NCBI GenBank assembly: GCA_015698285.1
Contig: CP048685.1
Coordinates: forward strand, 3,286,001 to 3,350,000
DNA from: Candidatus Nitronauta litoralis
GTDB taxonomy: Bacteria > Nitrospinota > Nitrospinia > Nitrospinales > Nitrospinaceae
Direction of reading: 5' to 3'
DNA: 64,000 nucleotides
A program made the position numbers and the translations under genes. The notes beneath the pieces are model-generated. The model did not search any database, was not told the DNA's origin, and saw only the letters and a program-made list of their open reading frames with translations. Position 1 is the first letter of the stretch. Each line of letters opens with the position of its first letter. This document shows, in pieces, positions 6,852 through 62,760 of this stretch.

Positions 6852-9257
6852 CTAGAATGTATTCTGCGACATTGGATCCAATTCGCTTTTTCCCTTTTCA
6901 GGTGGATTGTCTTTAAGGAAAACCTCGAATTTTGATGAAGGTGAATCAAACTCTGCCGAACTTCCTGTTTCAGGATCAATTTTTATATACATCACATCAT
7001 CGGGGACTGGAAAATCCATTATGGGCTTTCCGTTCATAGCTTTCTTCATGTAATCCAGCCAAATAGGAATGGCAGCCCTCGAGCCTGTTTCGTTCTGTCC
7101 CAGCGGCTCGTCTTTATCTTTTCCAACCCAGACTCCTGTTACCATTTCAGGGGTATATCCCATGAACCAGGCGTCTACAAAGTTATTGGTTGTGCCAGTT
7201 TTTCCAGCCACAGGACGGCCCAGGGCTTTTACTTTAGTAGCGGTTCCGTGTTGCACTACACTTTGAAGCAAACTTGTAATCAGATAAGCCATGCCTGGGG
7301 AGATAACCTGAATTTCAGAAGGTGTTGCCCGGTATATGACCTCATCGTCCCGGTTTATGATATGGCGGACGGAAGTGGGCTCCACCTTCTTTCCTCCATT
7401 AGCAAAAATAGAATAAGCAGACACCAGTTCATAAAGGGTTAGACCGGAAGAACCCAGGGCGATAGACAGGTTTTCTGACATAGGGCTTTTAATCCCCATC
7501 TGTCTGGCAAGGTCAATTGCTTTTTGAACTCCTGTGTTTTGCAGGAGTTTAATAGTGACGACATTGCGCGAATGGGTTAAAGCCGTTCTAATGGAAGTAG
7601 GACCATAAAACTTCTCTTCAAAATTTACGGGTTTCCATTTATCAAAGGTATCTTCCTTTTCATTAAAAATGACTGGTGCATCGATGATAATGCTAGCAGG
7701 GGTATACCCCTCCTGGAGTGCTGCGGTATAAATAATGGGTTTAAACGCAGAGCCGGGTTGTCGGATGGCCTGAATTGCCCGGTTAAACTGGCTTTCCTGA
7801 AAATCGTATCCTCCGACCATTGAAAGGATCTGACCCGTTAGTGGGTTTAAGCTGATCAACCCTCCCTGGACTTCCGGTGTTTGTTCCAAGGCAAGAGCCC
7901 AATCACCATCCTGATTCTGGTTAAGCAATCGAACCTGAACGAGGTCTCCGGGTTTTAAAGCCTGATGTGCATTCTTGATGCGCGCCCATCGTCCGTCAAG
8001 ACGGATATTGGGTTTGCGCGCCCAATTCATTTTTTCAAGGGCAATCGAACCCTCAGCGAAACCTAGGTCCACATCCACTTCTTTAGGGAACACCTGAAGA
8101 ACTACCGCGTGAACGAGATCCCCACTTTCAGGAATGTGACCTTCCTTGAATTTGTTGTACTGATCAAGCGAATTCATGATGGCTTCGCGGCCCCCATCCA
8201 GATCCACAGAGCTGATCGGTCCTCGGTAGCCATAACGCTTGTCAGCCTCCAGCAAACCCTTTTGAACAGCGGCAGTTGCTATTTCCTGGTATGGGAGATT
8301 TAAGGTGGTGTAGACATTCAGCCCATCCCGATAAAGTTTATTGGACCCATAATTCTCCTGCAGAAACTGCCGGATATGTTCAACAAAATAGGGGGCCTTG
8401 TTCAGCATGTTGGTGATCTCACCCAATTGAAGCGGCGCTTTTAAAGCTGCCTCTCTTTCTTCAGGGGTGATGTTTTCCATGATCACCATTCTCTTTAAAA
8501 CATGAGTCCGGCGCTTGAGGGATTTCTCAGGATAACGGTACGGAGAATAGTTATTTGGTGCTTTTGGAAGAGCTGCGAGGGCCGCACATTGCACAAGGGT
8601 CAGGTCTTTTACACTTTTTCCAAAATAAGTCCTTGCTGCTGCTTCGACACCATAACTGCCATGTCCGTAGTAAATATTATTGAGGTACATTTCAAGGATT
8701 TCATCTTTGGAAAAAACCAGTTCCATCCGGACCGATAAAATCGCCTCTCTGATTTTTCTTTCGAGACTTCGCTCGCTGGAAAGAAAAAGAGTTTTGGAAA
8801 GCTGCTGGGTGATGGTGCTGCCTCCCTCAACCACATGACCAGCCTGTATATTGGTTAGAAAAGCTCTGAAAATGGCTTTGGGATCTATTCCAAAGTGAGA
8901 GTAAAAATTGGAATCTTCAACGGCGAGTGTAGCCTGCTTTAATAGTTTTGGTATTGTTTTTAAGGGAACGATGATCCGCTTTTCAATATAAAACTCGGCA
9001 ATCAGATCATCCTGATCCGAGTAAACCCGAGTGATTGTACTGGGTTGGTATTCTTTCAGGGATCGCACATCTGGTAAATCCTGGGAGTAATAGAAGAAAA
9101 TGAAACCAGCTCCAACAAAACCAGCAAATAGAACCAGAAGAAAAAGTGAAAGAAAAGAAACCAGCATTAATTTTTTGAAACCGGGTTTTTTCTTTTTTTT
9201 CTTTTTCAGTTTTCTTCGGAAAGTTACGGGAGGTTGATTGTCCAGGATTCGACTCAT
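6852..9257 (-). CDS. mrcA: penicillin-binding protein 1A (class A, bifunctional)
   Basis: An 801-residue bifunctional peptidoglycan synthase. A Lys-rich cytoplasmic N-terminus is followed by one membrane anchor at about residues 29-55. The glycosyltransferase family 51 domain shows EDSNFYSHFGID, GGSTITQQLSK and the RKIREAILSVRMELVFSKDEI helix region. The transpeptidase domain has SAFK (active Ser), SRN and KTGT. It polymerises and cross-links glycan strands in the periplasm. It is the last gene of a likely LRR-DUF5069-PBP1A operon (38-base gap upstream) and faces the LpoA-like gene tail to tail. Confidence 0.95.
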   Translation of the reverse strand: MSRILDNQPPVTFRRKLKKKKKKKPGFKKLMLVSFLSLFLLVLFAGFVGAGFIFFYYSQDLPDVRSLKEYQPSTITRVYSDQDDLIAEFYIEKRIIVPLKTIPKLLKQATLAVEDSNFYSHFGIDPKAIFRAFLTNIQAGHVVEGGSTITQQLSKTLFLSSERSLERKIREAILSVRMELVFSKDEILEMYLNNIYYGHGSYGVEAAARTYFGKSVKDLTLVQCAALAALPKAPNNYSPYRYPEKSLKRRTHVLKRMVIMENITPEEREAALKAPLQLGEITNMLNKAPYFVEHIRQFLQENYGSNKLYRDGLNVYTTLNLPYQEIATAAVQKGLLEADKRYGYRGPISSVDLDGGREAIMNSLDQYNKFKEGHIPESGDLVHAVVLQVFPKEVDVDLGFAEGSIALEKMNWARKPNIRLDGRWARIKNAHQALKPGDLVQVRLLNQNQDGDWALALEQTPEVQGGLISLNPLTGQILSMVGGYDFQESQFNRAIQAIRQPGSAFKPIIYTAALQEGYTPASIIIDAPVIFNEKEDTFDKWKPVNFEEKFYGPTSIRTALTHSRNVVTIKLLQNTGVQKAIDLARQMGIKSPMSENLSIALGSSGLTLYELVSAYSIFANGGKKVEPTSVRHIINRDDEVIYRATPSEIQVISPGMAYLITSLLQSVVQHGTATKVKALGRPVAGKTGTTNNFVDAWFMGYTPEMVTGVWVGKDKDEPLGQNETGSRAAIPIWLDYMKKAMNGKPIMDFPVPDDVMYIKIDPETGSSAEFDSPSSKFEVFLKDNPPEKGKSELDPMSQNTF

Positions 9258-9295
9258 GTAAGAGGGGTTGTAAGGCTGAATTTAACTTTGAGTGG

Positions 9296-9721
9296 TCAAG
9301 CCTGGTTTTCTTCAAGCTCTATCAAAGCTGCCCAGGTGTTTATATCTGTTCGGTCGGGAGCTAATTCATCGCGGATGGCATAAAACTTTTCCCATTTTTC
9401 CGGGGTGTCGGGTTGTTTGGTCAACAAGGCCTGGTTGGCTTTTTCTATTTCATTCTCGGGTGCATTCTTAAGGTGATCTTGAAACCAGGATGAAAGCTCT
9501 TCATCAGAAAGTTTTTCTGCCAGATCCCCAAATTTTCCAGCATCAAGCTTCAGGCAGCCCAGAATAATCTTATCCATCGGGCAGGGATACATAAACTCTC
9601 CAAGGGTACCAACCCTTGCTGCACGTGCTTTATCTGCCATTCTGGGAATCCAGACCATACCTGCCCAAGAATCCCTGGGTTGGCGGGGATTCCTTATATT
9701 TAGATCGAGTACTTCCTGCAT
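9296..9721 (-). CDS. DUF5069 domain protein
   Basis: A 141-residue soluble protein matching the DUF5069 pattern: an N-terminal RNPRQPRDSWAGMVWIPRM, then DKARAA.VGTLGEFMYPCPMD, and an acidic helical C-terminus. The family is widespread in bacteria but its function is not established. The gene sits 5 bases after the leucine-rich-repeat gene and 38 bases before PBP1A, so all three are probably one transcript; nothing in the sequence says how they cooperate. Confidence 0.7.
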   Translation of the reverse strand: MQEVLDLNIRNPRQPRDSWAGMVWIPRMADKARAARVGTLGEFMYPCPMDKIILGCLKLDAGKFGDLAEKLSDEELSSWFQDHLKNAPENEIEKANQALLTKQPDTPEKWEKFYAIRDELAPDRTDINTWAALIELEENQA

Positions 9722-9726
9722 GATGA

Positions 9727-10203
9727 TCAGACTTCTGAAAGGCGAACCCGTGACAAGTTCTTATAAAGGGGTGATCTTTTAATTGCAAGCGTGCCTTCCT
9801 TGCCAATACGTGAGCGGAAAAGGTCGAGGGTAGTCAGGTTTGTCAGCGTTTCTGAATTGGCGATGTGACGAGCACCTTCTTCTCCGATGTCATTAAATTT
9901 GAGGATCAATGAATCCAGATTTCCCAGATGCGGTGAAACTGCAATGGCCCGGGTTCCCACTGAAGTCAGTTTATTGGACTTTAAATTCAGTGATTTTAGG
10001 TTAGACACGTAAGGAGAGTTTACAAGAGCTTCAACTCCAGTATCCGTGATTTCATTGTCGCCAAGTTCGAGGCGTTTGATATCCTTGAGAATTTCCATTT
10101 GAGCAAGCTGATGAACCCCGTCATCACCCAGGTTATTATTCTCAAGATCCAGAACCTCATTTTCATGCAGACCTCTTTGAACCAAGTCTTCAACGTTAGC
10201 CAT
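9727..10203 (-). CDS. leucine-rich repeat protein (ribonuclease-inhibitor type)
   Basis: A 158-residue protein made of about five ~28-residue leucine-rich repeats with the pattern L.LENNNLGDDGV, L.LGDNEITDTGV, LNLKSNKLTSVG, LILKFNDIGEEG and LDLFRSRIGKEG. No signal peptide is visible, so it is likely a cytoplasmic protein-binding scaffold. A GGGAG site lies about 9 bases upstream of the ATG, supporting this start. It leads the apparent operon with the DUF5069 protein and PBP1A. Short bacterial LRR proteins of this kind have no known general role. Confidence 0.75.
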   Translation of the reverse strand: MANVEDLVQRGLHENEVLDLENNNLGDDGVHQLAQMEILKDIKRLELGDNEITDTGVEALVNSPYVSNLKSLNLKSNKLTSVGTRAIAVSPHLGNLDSLILKFNDIGEEGARHIANSETLTNLTTLDLFRSRIGKEGTLAIKRSPLYKNLSRVRLSEV

Positions 10204-10342
10204 TCACGGAACTCCCAAAGGTTTGCCAATACACTAGTAAAAGCTAAGTGTATTGAATTTTAAGCCCTCAATCAACCCTCAAGACCTGATTCTCATTGTT
10301 CCAAGCGGTTATTTCCGGGTTTAAATTGAATTGAACTGACCA

Positions 10343-10372
10343 TTGCATAGGCGGGTTCATTTTAGGCATAAT
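10343..10372 (+). promoter_or_regulatory. putative sigma-70 promoter for the small TPR gene
   Basis: TTGCAT at 10343-10348 and CATAAT at 10367-10372 are separated by 18 bases. The spacing and partial consensus match a housekeeping promoter whose transcript would start near 10379, about 65 bases before the ATG at 10443. Confidence 0.45.
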
Positions 10373-10442
10373 AGAAGAAGGTGGTAATCAGTAAAGGTAT
10401 GAAGCAACCTATTTAACCTTTTCATTTTTGGGGGATTTAATT

Positions 10443-58877: not shown

Positions 58878-59600
58878 CTAGAGAGCCCCAATCGCTTTTT
58901 TCTGCATTTCGATCAATTCCTTGATTCCCTGGTCGGCAAGTTTCAGCATAGCGTTAAGATCCTTGGTGCTGAATGGGTCGCGCTCTGCTGTTCCCTGCAC
59001 TTCAATGAATTTTCCCGCTCCTGTACGGACCACATTGAAATCAACACTGGCGGTCGAGTCTTCATCATAATTGAGATCCAGAATGTGTTTGCCTTCGTAA
59101 ATCCCGACACTGGTAGCGGCGACGAAATCCCGAATCGGGATCGAGGTCAGGACTTTTTTCTTCTTGAGTTCTTTCAAGGCGAGGCAAAGGGCAACAAATG
59201 ATCCGGTGATTGATGCCGTCCGCGTACCACCATCTGCCTGTAATACGTCACAATCGATCCATACAGTTCTCTCGCCTAATGCTTCCATATCCACAACGGT
59301 TCGTAGTGAACGACCGATCAACCGTTGGATTTCCTGGGTACGTCCGCTCACTTTTCCTTTACTGGATTCTCTTGTCATGCGGGTGTGAGTTGACCTCGGC
59401 AGCATGGAATATTCAGCCGTGACCCAGCCTTGGCCTTTTCCTCTAAGAAATGGGGGTACTTTATCTTCAACACTTGCAGTGCATTGAACGTGAGTGTTCC
59501 CCACTTGAATTAGTACGGAACCTTCGGCGTACCGGTTGACGTTTTTCTTAATATTGACCGGTCGCATTTGATCCGAAGCCCGCTTATCTGGACGTTCCAT
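58878..59600 (-). CDS. rph: ribonuclease PH
   Basis: A 240-residue phosphorolytic 3'-to-5' exoribonuclease that trims tRNA 3' ends. Hallmarks are the N-terminal [53 protein letters not shown] and [12 protein letters not shown]. Its frequent neighbour, an XTP/dITP pyrophosphatase gene, is not next to it. It is convergent with the hypothetical gene. Confidence 0.95.
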
Positions 59601-59791: not shown

Positions 59792-61816
59792 GTGGACTCC
59801 TATTTTCAAAGTGACGTTAAATTAGTCGGTACTCTCAAGGTAAAGGGAACGGTTCATTTCGAAGGTGAAATTGATGGCGAGATCATTGCCACGGACCATC
59901 TGATTATCGGAGAGAAGGGAAGGGTCAAGGGAGATATTCAGACTTACGATATTACCAATCTGGGTCTGATCTCCGGAAATATTGTGGCCGAGCACAAGGT
60001 AGCTCTCGCCAGTGGCAGTCGGCTGGAAGGAGATATCCTGACCCATCACCTTGTGGTTGAAGAAGGGTGCCGTTTTGAAGGCAGCTGCCAAATGCGGGAA
60101 GTGGCTGGCACCCCTGAGAAATCAATTACCCCCTCAGCTTTGGTTGAAACTTTGACCTCACATGAAGTTATTGAAGATCAGGCTTCAGAGGCTCTATCTC
60201 CGGTTTCTCCTCCAGAAAAGGCTACCCGAAAAAAGAAGCGAAAATTAGCCCGTCCCATTGCAGCGGCTGGAATTTTGGCAATGATTGGTATGGGTTGGTA
60301 CAACTATCCGCGTTACTTTGGCGAATCGATTGACCTTCACATTACCCGTGGACAAACGCTCATTGCCCAGAAAAGGTACTCGGACGCGGAATCTGAGTTT
60401 CGTAAGGCGCTTAAAATTTCACGAAATAATTCAAAGGTTTATGCTGGTTTAGGTGATGTATATCTTCAAAAGAAAGAATACAACGAAGCTCTCACACAGT
60501 TTCAACGCTCCATAGAGCTCGAGCCTTCAACAACCTCCAACCACATAAAACTGGCCAAGGCTTATACAGCAAAAGGCAAATTCAATGAGGCCGTTAAGGT
60601 TTATCGCGCAGCGTTGGATATCGACCCACAAAATCACTTGGCGTTTTATGATATGGGGCAATTGAGACTAAAAGAGGGAAAAACGGAAGAAGCGATACAG
60701 CATTTGAAAATGGCGGCAAAACTGAAGCCCGGTTTTTTCCGGGTATTTCAGTCTTTGGCAAAAATTTACTCGGAGCAGGGAAAACTCGACCTTGCCCTGG
60801 ATCAGGTGGCAAATGCAATTAAAGCCAAGGATGATGACCCGGATCTTTTTTTGTTAAAGGGAGAGTTGTTAATTAAAGCCGGAAAAGAAAAAGAAGCCGT
60901 AAAAGCCTTCAAGCGAGTCACCGAATTATATCCGCAGAATTTCAAAGCGCAGTTAAAGCTGGCAGACTGGTATTTTGAAACGGGAGCGCTCGATCAATCT
61001 CTGGTGTCTTATCAGTTAGCAGAAAAACTGAAACCACAGGACCCGCGAGTCCAAGCCCGTCTTGGTAAAATTTACCTGGATCAAAACGATTCGAAACGAG
61101 CTGAGACAGCTTTCTTAAAAGCGGTCAAGCTGGATCCCAAATTTTCGGACGGACATTTTCATTTGGGGAAATTACAATCGGCTGCTAAAAAATGGGATGA
61201 AGCCAGGCTTTCCCTGGAAACAGCCCTGTCACTCAATGATCTTCTGGCTCCCGCTCATTATGAATTGAGTAAGGTCCTCTTTCAACTTGAGAAGTATGAA
61301 GAAGCATTAAAGCACATTAATCAAGCGGCAAAACTGGATTCGAAATCTACAGATTATAAGTTTCAAAAAGCAAAGACGCTGGTAGAAGTAAAACAATACG
61401 ATAGTGCTGTAAAAATGTTATCGACTCTCATTCAAAATGATCCTGAAAATGGCCAGGCCCAGTTTGAACTATGTAATGCTTACAGGAAAAAAGGGTATTA
61501 CACGGTAGCGATCCGCTATTGCGAGAAAAGTATCAATCTGGTTGATAATTTTTACGAGGCAATGAATCGCCTGGCCTGGTTGTATGCAAAAAAGAGAATT
61601 AACCTGGAAAAGGGATTATCGCTTTCACAAAAAACGGTAAAAGCGTTTCCAAAGAAACCAGAATACATGGATACATTGTCAGAAATCTATTTTGCTTCTG
61701 GTGAAAAAGATCAGGCCGTGGAAATGATATCCAAAGCCTTAGAGATTGCCCCGAATTCAAAATATTTCAAGCAACAATTGTGGAAATTCAAAAATGAGAA
61801 AGTTCCCGCAGGTTAG
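59792..61816 (+). CDS. bactofilin-domain / TPR membrane fusion protein
   Basis: A 674-residue protein from a GTG. Residues ~1-105 form a bactofilin-like right-handed beta-helix (VGTLKVKGTVHFEGEIDGEI, HLIIGEKGRVKGDI, SGNIVAEHKVALASG). Residues ~110-150 are a Thr/Glu-rich then Lys-rich linker (KKKRKLARP). A membrane helix follows at ~154-172 (IAAAGILAMIGMGWYNY). Residues ~180-665 are about 14 TPRs. Bactofilins polymerise on the inner membrane; here the polymer domain would be cytoplasmic and the TPR array periplasmic. The topology is inferred from the positive-inside rule. It is convergent with the exchanger gene, 2 bases apart. Confidence 0.85.
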   Translation: MDSYFQSDVKLVGTLKVKGTVHFEGEIDGEIIATDHLIIGEKGRVKGDIQTYDITNLGLISGNIVAEHKVALASGSRLEGDILTHHLVVEEGCRFEGSCQMREVAGTPEKSITPSALVETLTSHEVIEDQASEALSPVSPPEKATRKKKRKLARPIAAAGILAMIGMGWYNYPRYFGESIDLHITRGQTLIAQKRYSDAESEFRKALKISRNNSKVYAGLGDVYLQKKEYNEALTQFQRSIELEPSTTSNHIKLAKAYTAKGKFNEAVKVYRAALDIDPQNHLAFYDMGQLRLKEGKTEEAIQHLKMAAKLKPGFFRVFQSLAKIYSEQGKLDLALDQVANAIKAKDDDPDLFLLKGELLIKAGKEKEAVKAFKRVTELYPQNFKAQLKLADWYFETGALDQSLVSYQLAEKLKPQDPRVQARLGKIYLDQNDSKRAETAFLKAVKLDPKFSDGHFHLGKLQSAAKKWDEARLSLETALSLNDLLAPAHYELSKVLFQLEKYEEALKHINQAAKLDSKSTDYKFQKAKTLVEVKQYDSAVKMLSTLIQNDPENGQAQFELCNAYRKKGYYTVAIRYCEKSINLVDNFYEAMNRLAWLYAKKRINLEKGLSLSQKTVKAFPKKPEYMDTLSEIYFASGEKDQAVEMISKALEIAPNSKYFKQQLWKFKNEKVPAG

Positions 61817-61818
61817 CA

Positions 61819-62760
61819 TCAGGCCTGGCCTACCGATTTTATAACGATATAAACTGCGTACGCAGTGAGTAAAAACAAACCATCAATTTTTTTAAGATTG
61901 TGTCCAAACCGTATAAGTGCGATGAGTCCAAGGGTCAGGCCTGCACAATAGACAAGGTCCATTTGAATTGGAGAAACAATATTTAGAGGCTGGATGAGAG
62001 ACGCGGTCCCCAGTACCATTGTGATATTAAAAATATTGCTGCCAAACACATTTCCAAGGGCCATTTCCCCGTGACCTTTTAGGGCTGAGAGCGTGGCTGA
62101 AACAATCTCGGGAAGGCTGGTTCCAACCGCAACAATAGTGATCCCGATGAGCCATTCACTGATCCCGTAGGATCGGGCAATATTGACCGCGCCCTGTACC
62201 ATCCAATGCGCTCCAAGAACAAGCCCAACCAAACCCACAATGATGAGTCCAACCTGAATGAGAAGTCCTGCGCTTGGGAAATAGCTGGATTCCTCTTCGA
62301 GCTCCAGATCCCCCCCATCTTTTGCGGTCAATGCCAACAAGACATACCCCACAATGCAGGCGAATAAAATGCCTCCTTCTATCCGGCTTAAAAATTGATT
62401 CCAGGTAAAAAACAGAAGCATTCCGGTTGCAAACAATAATGGAGGAGTTTCTTTTTTCAGACGTCCCGGCTCAATAGTAACAGGGGCAATAAGTGCTGTT
62501 ATTCCTAAAACCAACCCGATATTTGCAATGTTGCTACCCACTACATTGCCTAGCGAAACCTCTGGGGCTCCCTGTAGGGTTGCTAACAAACTGACACATA
62601 GTTCGGGAGCCGATGTGCCAAAACCTATCACAACGGCGCCAATGGTAAAGGGGGATAATTTGAAAAACTTGGCAACTTGAATGCTACCCGAAATCAAAAA
62701 CTCCCCACCGAAATAAAGAAAGCCGAGTCCTAAAAGGATGAGGAGAAGGTCAAACCACAT
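61819..62760 (-). CDS. Na+/Ca2+ exchanger-family antiporter (CaxA/YrbG-like)
   Basis: A 313-residue membrane protein with ten hydrophobic helices and the two alpha-repeats of the CaCA superfamily: GFGTSAPELCVSLLATL...GNVVGSNIANIGLVLG and AVGTSLPEIVSATLSAL...GNVFGSNIFNITMVLG. It exchanges Ca2+ or K+ for Na+ or H+ across the inner membrane. The nearest characterised type is E. coli YrbG. It has no obvious operon partner. Confidence 0.93.
   Translation of the reverse strand: MWFDLLLILLGLGFLYFGGEFLISGSIQVAKFFKLSPFTIGAVVIGFGTSAPELCVSLLATLQGAPEVSLGNVVGSNIANIGLVLGITALIAPVTIEPGRLKKETPPLLFATGMLLFFTWNQFLSRIEGGILFACIVGYVLLALTAKDGGDLELEEESSYFPSAGLLIQVGLIIVGLVGLVLGAHWMVQGAVNIARSYGISEWLIGITIVAVGTSLPEIVSATLSALKGHGEMALGNVFGSNIFNITMVLGTASLIQPLNIVSPIQMDLVYCAGLTLGLIALIRFGHNLKKIDGLFLLTAYAVYIVIKSVGQA

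Follow-up and report, generated by a model that had tools for sequence, protein, structure and literature searches.

The locus described here raises the question of whether a bacterial cytoskeletal polymer can carry a scaffold of its own across the inner membrane. In a 64,000-nucleotide stretch of the "Candidatus Nitronauta litoralis" genome (GenBank assembly GCA_015698285.1, contig CP048685.1, positions 3,286,001 to 3,350,000; here called the window), the initial annotation had read a single open reading frame as a bactofilin domain followed by one membrane helix and about 14 tetratricopeptide repeats (TPRs), and had proposed that the polymer thereby displays a periplasmic scaffold. "Ca. Nitronauta litoralis" EB is a nitrite oxidizer growing as short, slightly curved rods, according to PMC8026999. 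It belongs to the phylum Nitrospinota, and its genome is a single contig of 3,921,641 bases.

Domain order and identity of the bactofilin domain

The domain order read in the initial annotation was borne out by Pfam searches, an AlphaFold2 model, and hydrophobicity scoring (Table 1). An in-frame stop lies just 5' of the GTG start. The AlphaFold2 model of the window protein, built on 29 order-level sequences (mean pLDDT, 86.9), consisted of a beta-helix (residues 3 to 101), a low-confidence stretch (110 to 177), 14 helix pairs (180 to 652), and a capping helix (657 to 668); a class-level relative (L061) was likewise modeled with 14 TPRs and a cap. The Pfam search suggested with the initial annotation gave a strong match of residues 5 to 100 to PF04519 (E = 2.7e-22; 79.3 bits versus a curated cut-off of 27.9), and the lack of any bactofilin match, named there as fatal to the claim, did not occur. 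Strands were modeled throughout residues 3 to 101 (pLDDT, ~95), and the whole core aligned with BacA of Caulobacter crescentus (2n3d; E = 8.6e-11 for profile A2) and with a Thermus bactofilin (6ria; E = 1e-9 for the same profile), with which the window protein shares both the beta-helix domain and the polymerization phenylalanine. All 29 Nitrospinales rows have this residue, Phe95; its counterpart in BacA is the one at which the F130R substitution stops polymerization (PMC12448750). By profile, fold, and polymerization residue, the window domain is a real bactofilin, and we infer that the fused bactofilin polymerizes.

BacA and the Thermus bactofilin are short proteins whose flanks are disordered and which attach to the membrane through an N-terminal peptide (PMC12448750), whereas in the window protein a membrane segment and a TPR array come after the domain. 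At 674 amino acids (aa), with a structured TPR flank and an N terminus (MDSYF) without a canonical MFSKKKK-like membrane peptide, the protein does not have the canonical form. Nor is it one of the bactofilins with N-terminal transmembrane helices, which make up ~3.2% according to PMC12448750, as its domain begins at residue 3 and the segment lies at residues 152 to 170. CcmA of Proteus mirabilis, which has such helices, is an integral membrane bactofilin, as is proposed for the window protein, but CcmA-type helices precede the domain, whereas the window helix follows it and is joined to a large, probably extracytoplasmic part. Bactofilin architecture, including the disordered flanks, is thought to be highly conserved (PMC12364344), and no bactofilin-TPR fusion was found in searches of open-licence papers, including the available parts of PMC12448750, PMC10945521, and PMC12364344.

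Table 1. Coordinates of the fusion gene, its parts, its neighbors, and variant loci (window positions unless a locus is given)
Feature	Position	Strand	Basis or remark
Fusion gene, from bactofilin domain through linker and membrane segment to 14 TPRs and cap	59792..61816	+	674 aa, GTG start
Bactofilin beta-helix, residues 3-101	59798..60094	+	PF04519; AlphaFold2 strands; aligned to 6ria and 2n3d
Phe95, equivalent to chain position 130 of 2n3d (BacA) and 105 of 6ria	60074..60076	+	Alignment, chain numbering
Disordered linker ending in basic cluster KKKRK	60095..60244	+	pLDDT <50 at 110-177; charge counts; column entropy 2.51
Residues 152-170, the one hydrophobic segment and a probable transmembrane helix	60245..60301	+	Hydrophobicity; after KKKRK
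14 TPRs, residues 180-652	60329..61747	+	Pfam TPR models, AlphaFold2 helix pairs, structure match
Cys561, TPR12 position 8	61472..61474	+	Invariant in 29/29 rows
Cys577, TPR12 position 24	61520..61522	+	Invariant in 29/29 rows
TPR13-14 plus capping helix, likely end for client binding, with the best-conserved concave face	61553..61795	+	Entropy; block alignment A4
Divergent neighbor, presumably RNase PH-like	58878..59600	-	Same neighbor in 20/21 loci
Convergent neighbor, presumably Ca/cation antiporter-like	61819..62760	-	Same neighbor in 21/21 loci
Array-less g14 genes	L075 460-950; L076 2060-2583		
Half-array g8 genes	L053 9130-10353; L071 7642-8865		
g13 frame-change genes	L074 (G059) 150-2269; L054 (G031) 8553-10400		
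f6 neighbors	L064 2536-3666, 5906-6781; L063 3704-4516		

Distribution and single origin of the fusion

The distribution was surveyed in Nitrospinota genomes. In 58 of 77 genomes, the best match to the fused-type (type 3) bactofilin fell within an open frame of 400 aa or more, as counted from match rows, with TPRs read in part of them and some frames cut by contig ends. Eight of nine families (f1 to f4 and f6 to f9) had the fused type; the one genome of f5 (G041) had no qualifying frame, and three of the 77 genomes had no bactofilin match. In a 41-genome set that included the window genome, 38 had a match at E <= 1e-20, with a full-length fusion in most and other TPR proteins only in some (e.g., G034). 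A close relative of the window genome is a Nitrospinaceae MAG. The same domain order, for which the initial annotation had suggested a search, is thus present in related genomes. A frame error or chimeric fusion was rejected because the same open frame recurs in so many genomes and families. Among 14 bactofilin records from plasmids, none covered 80% of the N-terminal query.

In a tree of 52 bactofilin-domain rows (106 columns), 24 type-3 rows fell on one side of a branch with support of 100/99, and several independent fusions are therefore not supported. Two unlabeled short bactofilins of G043 fell inside the type-3 clade. Type 2 likewise formed one clade (96/97), to which the long branches of the tree belong rather than to the fusion, and type 1 was not resolved as one. 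The domains and their order, their conservation across the phylum, and their single origin are established by computation.

The TPR array, its cysteines, and its distal end

TPR families dominate the remainder of the protein (TPR_2 in Pfam; E = 3.1e-65), which has the tandem 34-residue helix pairs and the consensus of a TPR protein. The estimate of about 14 repeats proved exact, since AlphaFold2 resolves fourteen helix pairs, followed by the capping helix. The TPR domain of O-GlcNAc transferase (1w3b) shares the solenoid fold (E = 9.6e-28; TMt, 0.58), but the repeat fold alone is common and the window protein has no transferase domain; a viral fold library gave repeat-fold matches only. Named TPR families were rejected at scores below their NCBIfam cut-offs (PrsT, 192 versus 312.2 bits; MamA, 162.1 versus 200; PilW, 103.4 versus 154; LapB, 87.2 versus 363). 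A few short TPR models exceeded theirs (e.g., LcrH_SycD; 117.7 versus 104.8 bits), which we read as repeat content, not membership.

In each of the 29 Nitrospinales rows, the array of ~500 aa held exactly two cysteines, both invariant and separated by 16 residues within a single TPR, versus ~7.3 expected at the rate of 13 other open reading frames of the window. Positions 8 and 24 of a TPR presumably face each other on opposing helices (usual TPR register), and to judge from the sequence, a C561-C577 disulfide within repeat 12 is therefore plausible. Outside the order, two cysteines were present in f6 (L063 and L064), where the pair is kept, and in L060; one was present in L061, L058, L059, L057, and L056, and none in L055.

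Conservation of the two faces was computed on 20 sequences of <80% identity, with the repeat register and the concave and convex sides assigned on the assumption of the consensus TPR scheme. Over the whole array, concave and convex entropies (1.73 versus 1.88 bits) did not differ significantly (permutation P = 0.08). Concave positions had lower entropy than convex ones in TPR13 (0.59 versus 1.65) and TPR14 (1.12 versus 1.90), and the capping helix was the most conserved part (0.47). This pattern of conservation points to TPR13-14 and the cap as the likely client-binding end. The end-of-array motif is partly generic, a TPR protein of the same genome matching it at E = 4.5e-20. That protein (L092, 2970-5249), to which the C-terminal TPR block is most closely related within the genome, has a lipobox-like stretch, and its gene adjoins genes that, to judge by sequence, are lolB-like and ispE-like.

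Natural variants

In genus g14, the TPR array has been lost and the bactofilin kept in G060 and G066, whose proteins stop just past the membrane segment; the G060 stretch has masked or ambiguous bases, and G066 alone is clean, with a readable hydrophobic segment. In genus g8, about half of the array remains in G021 and G052 (frames of 431 and 422 aa), and G017 is full length (671). G059 and G031 of genus g13 share a +1 frame change where the membrane segment ends; it falls at the same place in both, with CTC TGA as its context and a T-rich run nearby. In G059 the array reads open in the shifted frame; in G031 the array frame has further breaks, and the assembly may contain errors. The g13 change may represent a split gene, a programmed frameshift, or a shared error. 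The bactofilin is retained in all of these variants and the hydrophobic segment in those that can be read, which supports a view of bactofilin and anchor as the core and of the array as an add-on. The array, lost or shortened in several lineages, is therefore dispensable there.

Gene surroundings and a possible role in envelope assembly

In 21 Nitrospinales loci (the window and 20 others), the fusion gene has a divergent neighbor on one side, a convergent one on the other, and no operon partner; no shape or cell-wall genes are linked to it in these loci, and its neighbors are housekeeping genes only. The cell-shape role that the initial annotation had considered possible thus finds no support in these surroundings. 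The names of both flanking genes are presumed from sequence, and the one locus without the presumed RNase PH-like gene lies near a contig end. Outside Nitrospinales, neighbors vary between families. A heptosyltransferase (I-like) adjoins the fusion gene in f9 (L056, 8001-9242, above the NCBIfam cut-off; L059, by like sequence), a beta-N-acetylhexosaminidase does so in f7 (L061, above the cut-off), and f6 has a heptosyltransferase-like gene in L064 and LpxI-like genes in L063 and L064, all below curated cut-offs. These neighbors hint at lipopolysaccharide assembly, in two families, which are too few to decide.

They also lend some weight to an explanation other than polymer-based display, which we consider unlikely, namely, that the protein is an inner-membrane TPR assembly factor for envelope biogenesis (e.g., of lipopolysaccharide) whose bactofilin domain is merely an oligomerization or clustering module without a real cytoskeleton. 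The array is indeed the larger, well-conserved part of the protein. However, the neighbors differ across families and are housekeeping genes in Nitrospinales, the f6 matches fall short of their cut-offs, and it is the bactofilin that is retained in lineages in which the array has been lost.

Membrane topology

Each of the 42 array-bearing rows scored had its best hydrophobic segment, within the first 260 residues, in the stretch that separates the bactofilin domain from the array. In the 20-residue flanks of these rows, which are related and hence not independent, lysine plus arginine numbered 222 before the segment versus 99 after it, and aspartate plus glutamate 77 before versus 132 after; with the array-less G060 and G066, removed for n = 42, totals in all 44 rows were 230/99 and 79/132, respectively. 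The window segment itself is weakly hydrophobic and among the weakest of the set (Kyte-Doolittle maximum, 1.28; dG, +0.44); maxima in the other 29 Nitrospinales rows were 1.43 to 2.31. The dG values here and below are approximate.

An N-in/C-out topology with a periplasmic array is favored because of the charge bias, the conserved hydrophobicity, the two-cysteine signature, and the array-less variants that keep the membrane segment; since the window's own segment is weakly hydrophobic, we go no further than to infer it. The alternative, that both domains are cytoplasmic, with the hydrophobic stretch interfacial or buried and the array an ordinary adaptor held by a membrane-attached bactofilin, is in our judgment distinctly unlikely. 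It draws on the weak hydrophobicity of the window protein and of L006 (weaker still by approximate dG, +0.71) and on the AlphaFold2 model of the window protein, which has no helix at residues 152 to 170; in the model of L061 the segment is one helix (139 to 160; pLDDT, ~50). It does not readily explain why hydrophobicity of the segment is kept while its sequence is not (column entropy, 2.08 versus 0.86 in the TPR core), why class-level relatives have a strongly hydrophobic segment (approximate dG, -2.4 to -4.5), or why the charge asymmetry and the two-cysteine pattern occur. Placement of both domains on one side, which the initial annotation had named as contrary to its claim, was thus not found. 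Its idea of periplasmic display by a polymer stands insofar as indirect evidence favors opposite sides and is weakened by the window's own segment.

Proposed mechanism

Given the strong bactofilin match and the topology evidence for opposite sides, the best reading, which we regard as probable rather than secure, is a cytoplasmic bactofilin polymer that tethers periplasmic TPR superhelices. Polymerization of the N-terminal beta-helix would take place along the cytoplasmic side of the inner membrane, with or without the cell's two ordinary bactofilins, and the built-in transmembrane helix after the domain would stand in for the usual N-terminal membrane-targeting peptide. Each subunit would carry a 14-TPR superhelix into the periplasm, where the conserved membrane-distal end (TPR13-14 and the cap helix) would bind a candidate envelope client, and the polymer would thereby line up these arms at a chosen site. 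Counting against this reading are the weak hydrophobicity of the window segment and its lack of a modeled helix, the array-wide comparison of concave and convex faces, the partly generic end-of-array motif, the loss of the cysteine pair in some families outside Nitrospinales, the lack of an operon partner, and the missing or shortened arrays of several lineages.

Known bactofilins influence the envelope through separate membrane enzymes that they recruit. LmdC and PbpC, like the proposed fusion, combine a cytoplasmic bactofilin contact, one membrane helix, and a periplasmic functional part (PMC10945521 and PMC12448750), but both are enzymes in their own right that the polymer recruits, whereas in the fusion the subunit itself would span the membrane and bear a scaffold instead of an enzyme. 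Such a subunit, if real, would form a direct, stoichiometric link from a cytoplasmic filament to the periplasm, and confirmation would mean that an inner filament directly positions envelope proteins in a phylum of major marine nitrite oxidizers. The natural variants (full, halved, array-less, and split) make the modular idea directly testable.

Other bactofilins of the genome

The source genome encodes two further bactofilins, without TPRs and unlinked to the fusion gene. One (L079, 6532-8665) adjoins genes that we take to be parA/parB-like, and the other (L080, 9850-11751) adjoins a gene presumably encoding a ParA/MinD-like ATPase, both names being presumed from sequence; the same pairing occurs in L067. 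A trans-envelope cytoskeleton in Nitrospinota could be imagined on this basis, improbable enough that we offer it as speculation, in which one mixed filament of the fused and the two ParAB-/MinD-linked bactofilins would let the chromosome-placing machinery also position periplasmic TPR arms, some species tuning the arm-bearing share by losing or halving the arm or by setting it behind a +1 frame change. It is very unlikely, despite these parA/parB-like and ParA/MinD-like neighbors, that the fused protein anchors a mixed bactofilin polymer to the membrane and so couples chromosome segregation to the envelope, as nothing indicates copolymerization of the three types, type 3 forms a clade of its own, and the fusion gene is not linked to those of the other bactofilins.

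Two further observations concern the loci of the ordinary bactofilins. The L080 bactofilin has an N-terminal DPxGxYDRxTRE-like stretch in common with the adjoining 404-aa protein. Downstream of the parAB-bactofilin genes of L079 (11820-17968), large secreted-looking proteins with curlin-like N/Q-rich repeats are clustered.
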